Positions 53,355 to 58,293 of a stretch of 64,000 nucleotides of DNA are shown here, one piece after another. The DNA is from an uncultured Alphaproteobacteria bacterium (GTDB lineage Bacteria > Pseudomonadota > Alphaproteobacteria > Caulobacterales > Caulobacteraceae), in contig CAIOSI010000024.1 in the NCBI GenBank assembly GCA_903860975.1, forward strand, positions 55,698 through 119,697, given 5' to 3'. Every line of letters starts with the position of its first letter. Position 1 is the stretch's first letter. Under the pieces are notes generated by a model. That model searched no databases, was not told where the DNA came from, and saw nothing but the letters and a program-made list of their open reading frames with translations. Made by a program: the position numbers and the translations under genes.

Positions 53355-53624
53355 TTAGCCGCGCGGTGGCCGTGCCAGGGCCCGCTTTAGGTGAGCCGCC
53401 CAGCGACGAGCCGCCGCCAGCAATGACGTCGCCATGACCACAAAGAAGATCAATAGCCAGAAGATCTCTCGGCTGGGGCCATAGGCAGCTGAAGGCGCGT
53501 CGTCAGGCGCACGCGCGCCAAGCAGCCGGCTGACGCCAAAGTACTCCAGAGCACCGATCGCGGCCAACGTCACCAAAAGGGCGCCTGCAAGGCGGAGCCA
53601 CATGATCAAACGGGCACCCCCCAA
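53355..53624 (-). CDS. Small two-TM membrane protein (possible start at 53603)
   Basis: MWLRLAGALLVTLAAIGALEYFGV...EIFWLLIFFVVMATSLLAAARRW. Confidence 0.6.
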   Translation of the reverse strand: MGGARLIMWLRLAGALLVTLAAIGALEYFGVSRLLGARAPDDAPSAAYGPSREIFWLLIFFVVMATSLLAAARRWAAHLKRALARPPRG

Positions 53625-53746
53625 ATCGACGCACCAAAAGAGCTGCGACCATCGGCCCTGACGGGCGTTTCGTCAAATCCGCACCACCGGACGATCATGA
53701 AGAGGGTCGCTTGCCACGCCCTTTGACGTCGCATCGGAATCGACTA

Positions 53747-53761
53747 GAACAAAAATAGAAC
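53747..53761. promoter_or_regulatory. LexA (SOS) box, alphaproteobacterial type
   Basis: GAAC-AAAAATA-GAAC (minus: GTTCTATTTTTGTTC), exact GTTC-N7-GTTC direct repeat. Confidence 0.75.
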
Positions 53762-53931
53762 TCACAGCTTATCAACAGTCTTGCGTGATCCACCTACAAG
53801 CTTCGATTGCGCTGGGTGAAAAGTCTGTAGAAGCGTCGACAGATTGTCTCGCGCGCAGGGGTCGCCTGTTTATAGGGAACCCGGCGGGCTGCGCCGCAGT
53901 TGGTAGCGAATTCGGCCCGGGTGCTTTTTGA

Positions 53932-55836
53932 ATGGTCGGACGATTTGACGAGCGTTTCCTAGACGAAATCAAGACACGCCTGCGCCCGTCCGACGTCATC
54001 GGTAAGACGGTGAAGTTGCGACGGCAGGGGCGCGAATACGTCGGCCTTTCGCCCTTCTCGAAGGAGAAAACGCCTTCCTTCTATGTCAACGACGACAAGG
54101 GGCAGTTCTTCGATTTTTCCTCCGGTAAGACCGGTGACATTATCTCGTTTCTGCAGGAGAGCGAGCGGCTGACCTTTGTCGAAGCCGTCGAGCGGCTGGC
54201 CGCCGAGGCGGGTGTCGCGCTTCCCGCGGTCGATCCCCGCGCTGCCGAGCAGGAGAGGGTCCGTCAGGGCCTTGGCGAATGGCTGGAAACCGCGGCCCAT
54301 TGGTTCGAGGCCGAGCTGCGTCGCCCATCTGGCCGCGAGGCCCGCGCTTATTTGGAAAAGCGCGGCCTACCCGAAAAGGACTGGGCTCGCTTTCGCCTGG
54401 GTTTCTCACCGCCCGGCCGGACGGCGCTCAAGGACTACCTTATTGCCAAGGGCGCACGGCCCGGCGAACTGATCGAAGCGGGTATGCTGATCGCCCCGGA
54501 AGACGGCGGAGCGCCCTACGACCGCTTTCGCGACAGGATCATCTTTCCGATCGCCGATGCGCGGGGCCGCGTGATCTCGTTCGGTGGTCGGGCCATGGAT
54601 CCGCAGGCTCGTGCGAAGTACTTGAATGGTCCGGAGACCAGCGTCTTCCACAAGGGCCACCAGCTCTATGGCCTGGCCGAAGCTCGAAAGATTATCGCTG
54701 CGGCGCCAGCAGGCGAAACGCCACCACTGGTCGTCGTCGAAGGCTACATGGACGTGATCGCCTGCCAGCGTGCGGGTCTGCCGGCCGTTGCCGCGATGGG
54801 CACCGCGCTTGGCGAGGACCAGATGGAGGTCCTTTGGCGCCACCACCCCGAGCCTTCGATCTGTCTCGATAGCGATCGTGCCGGCCGCCAGGCAGCCCAT
54901 CGGCTGTTGGATCGCGCCCTGCCGCTGCTGAAGCCCGGGAGGAGCTTCAAGTTCGTCCTTATCGAGAGCGGCAAAGATCCGGACGAGGTGTTGCGTGAAC
55001 AGGGCCCTGCCGCGCTGAAAGCGCAGCTGACCCAGGCAACGCCCTTTGTGGAAGCCCTCTTCCTGCGTGAGCGTGACGCCGATCCATCGGATACCCCCGA
55101 GCGCAGAACCGCGCTCAAGGTGCGCCTGCGTAAACTTGCGGCCACGATCGCGGACCCCGATCTCGCACAGGCTTATAAGGAAGACCTGCTGAGCCGCTAT
55201 GAACAGCTGTGGCCAACCCAACAGCCGGTATTCACTGTCGGGGCTGCGGCGCGCGAGATGTCTCGTCGGCGCTGGGACAAGGAAAAATCAGGTATATCGC
55301 AGGCTGGATCGACGCCTGAGGCTAAAGACGCGAGCCGCCGCTTGAGGGTCTCCCCGCGTCCTCTTGCCGCCGCGCTGGCCCTGGCGGCGGTTCGCGACCC
55401 AGCGGTTATTGATGAAAAGATCGAGCTGATCGGAGCTCGCGGCTTCGGCGACGAAAAACTGGATGGCCTCGCCCAAGCGCTGGTGCGCCTAAGGTATGAG
55501 GCTGACGGCCAGGAATTCGACGGCGCGCTCCAAGCCAGGGGGTTCGATCCTGCCATGTTGACGTTGTTGGAACAGGACGCGCGGCGCGCCGGCGTTAGCG
55601 CCCCGTTCCTCCAGGAGAGCGGTGAGCACGCGCGCGAGCTCTGGTGCCAAGCCTTCGATCTCCTCATGCAGCTGGAGAGTTTGGAGCGCGCGGTGGAGGC
55701 CGCCGCACGCGATCTCGATCGCGAGCGCGACTCAACGGCGTTGAATGCCCTGAAGGCTGAGCGGGATCATCTTCGCAAGCGTCTGAACAGCGACTGGGCG
55801 CACCCGGAAGAGACGGTGGCCGTTCTGCCCCATTGA
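53932..55836 (+). CDS. dnaG: DNA primase DnaG
   Basis: SFYVNDDKGQFFDFSSGKTGDIISFLQE, VVVEGYMDVIACQRAGL TOPRIM. Confidence 0.97.
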   Translation: MVGRFDERFLDEIKTRLRPSDVIGKTVKLRRQGREYVGLSPFSKEKTPSFYVNDDKGQFFDFSSGKTGDIISFLQESERLTFVEAVERLAAEAGVALPAVDPRAAEQERVRQGLGEWLETAAHWFEAELRRPSGREARAYLEKRGLPEKDWARFRLGFSPPGRTALKDYLIAKGARPGELIEAGMLIAPEDGGAPYDRFRDRIIFPIADARGRVISFGGRAMDPQARAKYLNGPETSVFHKGHQLYGLAEARKIIAAAPAGETPPLVVVEGYMDVIACQRAGLPAVAAMGTALGEDQMEVLWRHHPEPSICLDSDRAGRQAAHRLLDRALPLLKPGRSFKFVLIESGKDPDEVLREQGPAALKAQLTQATPFVEALFLRERDADPSDTPERRTALKVRLRKLAATIADPDLAQAYKEDLLSRYEQLWPTQQPVFTVGAAAREMSRRRWDKEKSGISQAGSTPEAKDASRRLRVSPRPLAAALALAAVRDPAVIDEKIELIGARGFGDEKLDGLAQALVRLRYEADGQEFDGALQARGFDPAMLTLLEQDARRAGVSAPFLQESGEHARELWCQAFDLLMQLESLERAVEAAARDLDRERDSTALNALKAERDHLRKRLNSDWAHPEETVAVLPH

Positions 55837-56337
55837 AGTGTGCGACAAAATAGCTTCATAAAAACAGAGAGTAGGCTGACGGTTCGGCAGTTCAGAGAGA
55901 ACTTCCCTGCCATCTGTCCACAGCTCATCTTGACATCCGCCGTCTTCGACGCCATCTGGCCGTTGCGGATTTAGCGCGCTGTTGACAGGCATTCGATCGG
56001 GCCGCCGCGAGGATTCGGGCGCGCCCATAAAATCAGATGATGCCTCCCTCGATGCGCGGTGATCCCAGTGGTCGCGCCTCTTCGCGGACTCTTTTAAAGG
56101 GTCGGCAGCTTGTGACGATGCCACCGACGCCTAGGGGGTAGACCTTGGGTGATCGCGGTGTGGCGCGTTTGAGAAGCCCGGAGGTGAAGTGCGGCGCACT
56201 GACGCAAAGCCGATAACATACCGACCAATTTGGGGTGGGCGACAGGTTGCGATGCTTCGGCATTGGCCTTTCCGTCCGCAAGAAATTCTTTCCGGCCCAT
56301 GCCTTGCTGGGGCTTAGCGCCGAATTCGGAGAACTCG

Positions 56338-58293
56338 ATGAGTACGAACACCGCTGAAGCTGAAGCGCCAGAAACCACAGGCAGCGACGGCCCTTTGCTT
56401 GATCTGACGGACGCGGCGGTCAAGAAATTCATCAAACAAGCCAAGGCTCGCGGCTATGTCACGATGGACGAGCTGAACAAGGTCCTGCCGTCAGAGGAGG
56501 TCACCTCCGAGGCAATCGAAGACACCTTGGCTATGCTTTCCGAGATGGGCGTCAACGTCGTTGAGGCCGAAGAGGACGCCGAGGGCGGCGGCGAAGTCGC
56601 AGTTCGGGAAGAGACCTCGGTCGTCGAGACCACCAAGGAAGCGGCCTACGATCGCACGGACGATCCGGTACGCATGTACCTACGCGAGATGGGCTCAGTG
56701 GAGCTGCTGTCGCGCGAGGGCGAAATCGCGATCGCCAAGCGCATTGAGGCTGGCCGCGACACGATGATCCGCGGGCTCTGCGAAAGCGCGCTGACGTTTG
56801 AAGCTATCATGGTCTGGCGCGAAGAGCTGGGCTCAGGCCGCATCCTGTTGCGCGAGGTCATCGACCTTGAGCAGACTTACGGCGGCGTCAATGCCGCGGC
56901 CGCCGAGGAGCTGGCCGCGAACGCGCCGACGCCCGCCGAAGTCGAAGAAGATGCCGAGCCCGAGTTAAACGCCGATGGCGAGGCGATCGCCAAGAGCGAT
57001 GATGACGATGATTTCGACGATGGGGCTGGTCCGACCATCAGCGCGATGGAGAGCGAGCTGCGCGAAGGCGTGATGCTCACGCTGGATGCGATCGCCTTGG
57101 AGTTCGAGAGCTTCCGCTTGCTGCAGGAGAAATTGGTCGGTCAGCGCCTGAAGGGCGAGGACCTATCGGAAAAGGACCGTGCAGCCTACGTCACGGCGAC
57201 GGGCGCGATCGTCTTGCATCTGAAGACGCTGAAGCTGAACAACAACCGCATCGAGGCGCTGGTCGAGCAGCTCTACGCCATCAACAAACGCTTGATGGGT
57301 CTAGAGGGCCGCCTTCTACGCCTCGCCGACAGCTACGGAATCAGCCGGGGCGAGTTTTTGAAGGCCTACTTTGGCTCCGAATTGCGTCCCGACTGGACCG
57401 ACCAAGTGAAGGCATTGGGCGTACGGTGGACAAAGTTCTCCGAGAACGACAACGGCCAGATTGGCGACATCCGCACCGAGATCGCCGCTCTGGCGACTGA
57501 GACGGGCGTGCCGATCGATGACTACCGACGCATAGTCCAGACGGTCCAAAAAGGTGAACGAGAGGCACGGCAGGCCAAGAAGGAAATGGTTGAGGCCAAC
57601 CTTCGTCTCGTAATCTCGATCGCCAAAAAATACACCAACCGCGGTCTGCAGTTCCTGGATCTCATTCAGGAAGGCAACATTGGTCTGATGAAGGCGGTTG
57701 ATAAGTTCGAATACCGCCGCGGCTACAAGTTCTCGACCTACGCCACCTGGTGGATTCGTCAGGCCATCACCCGTTCGATCGCCGACCAGGCGCGCACCAT
57801 CCGAATTCCGGTGCACATGATCGAGACGATCAACAAGATCGTCCGGACGAGCCGCCAGATGCTGCACGAAATCGGCCGCGAGCCGACACCGGAAGAGCTG
57901 GCCGAAAAATTGGCAATGCCTTTGGAAAAGGTCCGCAAGGTCCTGAAGATCGCCAAGGAGCCAATCAGTCTCGAGACACCGATCGGCGACGAAGAAGACA
58001 GCCACCTTGGTGACTTTATCGAAGACAAGAATGCGATCCTGCCGATTGATGCGGCAATCCAGTCGAACCTGCGGGAGACCACCACTCGTGTGCTCGCGTC
58101 TCTGACGCCCCGCGAAGAACGCGTGCTGCGCATGCGCTTTGGTATCGGCATGAATACCGACCATACCCTCGAGGAAGTCGGCCAGCAGTTCAGCGTCACC
58201 CGCGAGCGCATTCGTCAGATCGAAGCCAAGGCGCTGCGCAAGCTCAAGCATCCGAGCCGCTCGCGCAAGCTGCGCAGCTTCCTGGACAGCTGA
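56338..58293 (+). CDS. rpoD: RNA polymerase sigma factor RpoD (sigma-70)
   Basis: [62 protein letters not shown]; region 4 HTH. Confidence 0.98.

Follow-up and report, generated by a model that had tools for sequence, protein, structure and literature searches.

A sequence with the form of a LexA box lies between dnaG and a divergently oriented ORF for an 82-aa protein with two transmembrane (TM) segments, and the question raised by this locus is which of the two, if either, the box controls. An earlier note on the window (the whole stretch of 64,000 nucleotides that was analysed) had placed the box at the head of a candidate damage-induced peptide operon consisting of a 42-aa ORF and the 82-aa ORF, and had named dnaG as an alternative target. 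All the coordinates that it gave were correct and every feature that it stated was present; the box, the 82-aa gene, and dnaG were the only ones among these features for which evidence of function was obtained (Table 1). The analysis makes it probable that the box is a LexA operator on an auxiliary promoter for dnaG, which would be repressed until DNA damage. The host genome (53 contigs, 3.83 Mb) is presumably of the Phenylobacterium type (Caulobacteraceae), as judged by the organism names on the closest dnaG loci.

Table 1. Features of the dnaG locus, with positions in the window.
Feature	Position	Strand	Evidence or remark
82-aa two-TM protein, lineage-specific gene	53355..53603	-	Homologues beside dnaG in 15/90 genomes; ATG at 53603
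42-aa open frame, probably spurious	53606..53734	-	No homologue; overlaps the 82-aa gene's promoter
Conserved promoter of the 82-aa gene	53648..53676	-	-35 TTGACG (53676-53671), N17, -10 GATGGT (53653-53648)
Putative dnaG-facing promoter	53723..53750	+	TTGACG (53723-53728), N14, ACTAGAAC (53743-53750)
Predicted LexA operator GAACAAAAATAGAAC	53747..53761	+	Identical to the imuA box; 12 orthologous boxes in one orientation
DnaA-box-like TTATCAACA	53769..53777	+	Between the LexA box and dnaG
dnaG, DNA primase	53932..55836	+	TIGR01391, E 1.6e-123; Pfam DNAG_N, Toprim
rpoD, primary sigma factor	56230..58293	+	NF004208, E 1.1e-269; downstream of dnaG

The Box Matches Those of SOS Genes in the Same Genome

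The box GAACAAAAATAGAAC is a direct repeat, GAACN7GAAC, with an A-rich spacer. Bare GAACN7GAAC was not enriched, as the window contained 2 copies vs. 2.1 expected and the whole genome 98 vs. 134 for the reversed control, while the A-rich form GAACAAAANNNGAAC was enriched in the genome, with 7 copies vs. 1 of its reversed control. The genome carries lexA (PF01726 match), whose own box GAACGTCTAGAGAAC is located 11 nt before the lexA ORF, and A/T-rich boxes or the lexA box precede lexA, imuA, a dnaE2-like polymerase gene, ssb, uvrA, and a PA0069-type radical SAM gene. The box upstream of imuA is the identical 15-mer. The enrichment of the A-rich form, together with the boxes before lexA and the SOS genes, indicated that LexA very probably uses a GAACN7GAAC operator in this bacterium, and GAACAAAAATAGAAC is very probably such an operator, as the earlier note had proposed from its sequence. 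The boxes of uvrA and the radical SAM gene have the other orientation, so the orientation of a LexA box alone is no proof of the direction in which it acts.

The Box Is Patchily Associated with dnaG in Phenylobacterium

The dnaG upstream regions of 90 Phenylobacterium genomes, some of them incomplete MAGs, were gathered together with those of 27 additional named loci and of 66 loci from other genera of the Caulobacteraceae, and boxes were counted as exact matches or by a position weight matrix (PWM) within 300 nt upstream of dnaG. An exact box with an A/T-rich spacer was found in 12 of the 90 Phenylobacterium genomes, 106–199 nt before the dnaG start, a greater distance than at imuA or lexA; in the window it is 170 nt. 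All 12 boxes have GAAC towards dnaG, that is, 12 to 0 by orientation, vs. Markov expectations of 0.45 and 0.25, and the dnaG coding sequences (46.7 kb) contained no exact box. Similarly, the PWM at a score of at least 16 detected 12 sites, again 12 to 0 by orientation, vs. 0.4 in shuffles, with the window's own score partly circular because the own-genome boxes used for training include the imuA copy. None of the 27 further named loci and none of the 66 loci of other Caulobacteraceae genera had a LexA box upstream of dnaG, and at one locus, L054, the box looks decayed. The box is patchy even within Phenylobacterium.

Six of the 12 boxed dnaG loci lack the small gene. In three of these (L103, L106, and L136) the next gene upstream, a sigma-factor-like ORF, is co-directional with dnaG, which leaves dnaG as the only evident target of the box. 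These observations support dnaG, the alternative target of the earlier note. The box was more frequent in loci with the small gene (6/15) than in those without it (6/75), which may reflect relatedness among the genomes; on a weak dnaG tree (~210 columns) the box changed state about 10 times and the small gene 5 times, giving too few independent pairs for a comparison of the two.

A Putative Promoter Facing dnaG Overlaps the Box

The housekeeping promoters of Caulobacter have the consensus TTGACGS-N10-14-GCTANAWC. The sequence TTGACG-N14-ACTAGAAC fits this consensus, the first GAAC half-site of the box is located inside its Caulobacter-type -10 element ACTAGAAC, and the layout and spacing are those of the imuA promoter in the same genome. 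TTGAC occurs 19–20 nt before the box on the dnaG-facing side in 4 of the 12 boxed loci (L051, L055, L056, and L135), and the locus with the decayed box keeps it as well. Because TTGAC is absent at this spacing in the other 8 boxed loci, and a generic TTGACA/TATAAT sigma-70 scan called no promoter at 53723-53750, we regard this promoter as putative.

Taken with the distribution of the box, this arrangement suggests a mechanism in which the LexA operator would cover the -10 element and the start region of an auxiliary plus-strand promoter. In the undamaged cell, bound LexA would hold this promoter shut, and basal dnaG expression would come from one or more other promoters closer to the gene. Upon DNA damage, RecA would trigger the self-cleavage of LexA and the auxiliary promoter would open, giving a transcript with a leader of ~170 nt and raising the expression of dnaG, possibly together with rpoD. 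The physiological benefit could be that extra primase helps replication restart and lesion skipping. The 82-aa gene would be transcribed separately from its own promoter.

The 82-aa Gene Has Its Own Promoter

The earlier claim of a real two-TM ORF of 82 aa was well founded. The dnaG loci contained 16 members of its family, the window's included, of which 15 are directly divergent from dnaG and one is 931 nt away, and one further homologue was found elsewhere in genome G034. The homologues are 54–85% identical to the window's protein and their substitutions fall mostly at third codon positions. No convincing homologue was found outside Phenylobacterium in 120 genomes of the order, and the protein matched no Pfam or NCBIfam family. 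AlphaFold2 predicted two helices, at residues 2-29 and 43-77, with a mean pLDDT of 73, that is, at moderate confidence. As judged by this conservation, the 82-aa ORF is a genuine gene that is restricted to Phenylobacterium.

Could the box then control this gene, alone or together with dnaG, as a damage-induced protein of the SidA/DidA kind? The reality of the gene, the predicted two-helix membrane protein, and the higher frequency of the box beside it are what such a role would lead one to expect. However, the motif TTGAC[GC]-N17-GATGTT was found at -70 to -76 of the ATG in 14 of the 16 homologues, whether the LexA box was present or not, and in the window the box is located ~70 nt upstream of the -35 element of this promoter. 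No TTGAC was found at promoter spacing from the box towards the 82-aa gene. Further, the conservation of box and small gene as a unit held in part only, as the two occur together at 6 of the 15 dnaG-adjacent copies, while the other 9 adjacent copies and both separated copies, 11 of the 17 loci in total, have no box. Control of the 82-aa protein by the box is thus unlikely, and its description as an SOS target is probably wrong, although the excess of boxes beside the small gene leaves some room for a dual control of dnaG and the 82-aa gene. What had been a candidate division inhibitor is thereby reinterpreted as a gene specific to its lineage that has a promoter of its own.

It appears quite improbable that the box has no function and is a product of chance or a sequence in decay. 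The lack of enrichment of GAACN7GAAC over the genome, the patchiness of the sites before dnaG with the apparent decay at L054, and the lack of such sites in the other genera would all suit this explanation, but it has to account for 12 A/T-rich sites that are orthologously placed in one orientation where 0.45 were expected, and for a box in the window that shares both its sequence and its promoter layout with that of imuA.

Short Open Frames beside the Box

The 42-aa frame does exist as an open frame and starts 12 nt from the box. A homologue search with it retrieved none (best E 0.06), its region could be aligned among the loci only as promoter and leader, and the frame covers the promoter that is conserved before the 82-aa gene, so it was rejected as a gene and probably is not one. 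The damage-induced peptide operon found no support in these results, with its first member lacking a homologue and its second keeping its own promoter regardless of the box. On the plus strand, a 48-aa frame (53785-53931) ends directly before the dnaG ATG and was rejected as a conserved leader peptide, as no homologue was found (best E 0.24). A role of the box in the damage induction of a leader RNA or peptide before dnaG, such as this 48-aa frame, is very improbable, for although the dnaG leader is long and the frame abuts the dnaG ATG, the frame has no homologue and the leader varies in both length and sequence among the loci.

Other Sites Noticed

DnaA-box-like sites were also found in the dnaG upstream regions. 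With at most one mismatch, TTATCCACA occurred at 31 sites in 27 of the 117 loci, vs. 1.9 expected, and the TTATCCACA/TCATCCACA sites were mostly on the dnaG strand; DnaA may be a further regulator of dnaG.

Elsewhere in the genome, A/T-rich LexA boxes were located directly before three ORFs of ~100 aa at L032 (C2:78566), L038 (C37:44320), and L039 (C34:118075). These ORFs contain cysteine pairs and belong to no family, and they are better candidates than the 82-aa protein for new SOS-induced small proteins. A further box, GAACATACAGTGAAC, was found at L042 (C27:84352), ~200 nt upstream of mraZ, which heads the division and cell wall cluster, and could be due to chance.

Comparison with Known Systems

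SidA and DidA are small membrane division inhibitors of Caulobacter that bind divisome proteins (FtsW/FtsN). The 82-aa protein resembles them as a small membrane protein encoded near a damage-response element, and to this extent the likeness drawn by the earlier note was apt. In contrast, it has two helices without a family match and a promoter that appears independent of LexA, and the control by LexA or DriD that the likeness implied was not borne out.

In the limited literature collection searched, no study of the SOS response in Phenylobacterium was found. The LexA operator of C. crescentus is GTTCN7GTTC (PMC12700426), the same as the operator here read on the other strand. The LexA regulon of C. 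crescentus further resembles the present one in the boxes found here at lexA, imuA, ssb, and uvrA and in a box that overlaps a putative sigma-70-type promoter. It appears to differ at dnaG, which is unmentioned in the main text of the 2025 SOS study (PMC12700426) and which had no LexA box in the 66 loci of other Caulobacteraceae genera.

In C. crescentus, dnaG belongs to the targets of DriD, an SOS-independent damage activator of didA, bapE, recJ, and dnaG (PMC12340889). The two systems would share dnaG as a target and an increase of primase following DNA damage, while the regulator is DriD there and LexA is proposed here. A DriD orthologue of 331 aa is encoded in the own genome (L221, C39:12608-12802; phmmer E 6e-136 to chain 9pfq_Q). 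A DriD site was sought as ATACGAC-N7-GTCGTAT overlapping the -35 element of a dnaG promoter. No CGAC-N7-GTCG was present in the 300 nt that precede dnaG in the window, and the best match to the site had 4 mismatches, which is the background level, so that a DriD site in this leader was rejected. Over the dnaG leaders of the 117 loci, the exact core CGAC-N7-GTCG was found 6 times vs. 1.35 expected, slightly above background. Motifs resembling the DriD core were noticed upstream of dnaG at similar positions (-91 to -118) in L067, L089, L091, L098, and L120.

In E. coli, a LexA site is present upstream of the dnaG-rpoD operon. The locus here shares with it a predicted LexA control before dnaG and rpoD downstream, but the operator sequence differs and rpsU is absent, and the LexA-dnaG links of E. 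coli and Phenylobacterium most likely evolved independently. If the present prediction is confirmed, replication priming belongs to the SOS response in some Phenylobacterium, and close relatives with and without the box allow a direct comparison. We tentatively suggest, with less than even confidence, that dnaG of Caulobacteraceae has been tied to damage by different regulators, LexA in some Phenylobacterium and DriD in Caulobacter, with the LexA site repeatedly gained or lost; if this is true, raising primase after damage would itself be under selection. Considered together, LexA in E. coli, DriD in Caulobacter, and, if confirmed, LexA in Phenylobacterium suggest that the induction of primase evolved more than once.
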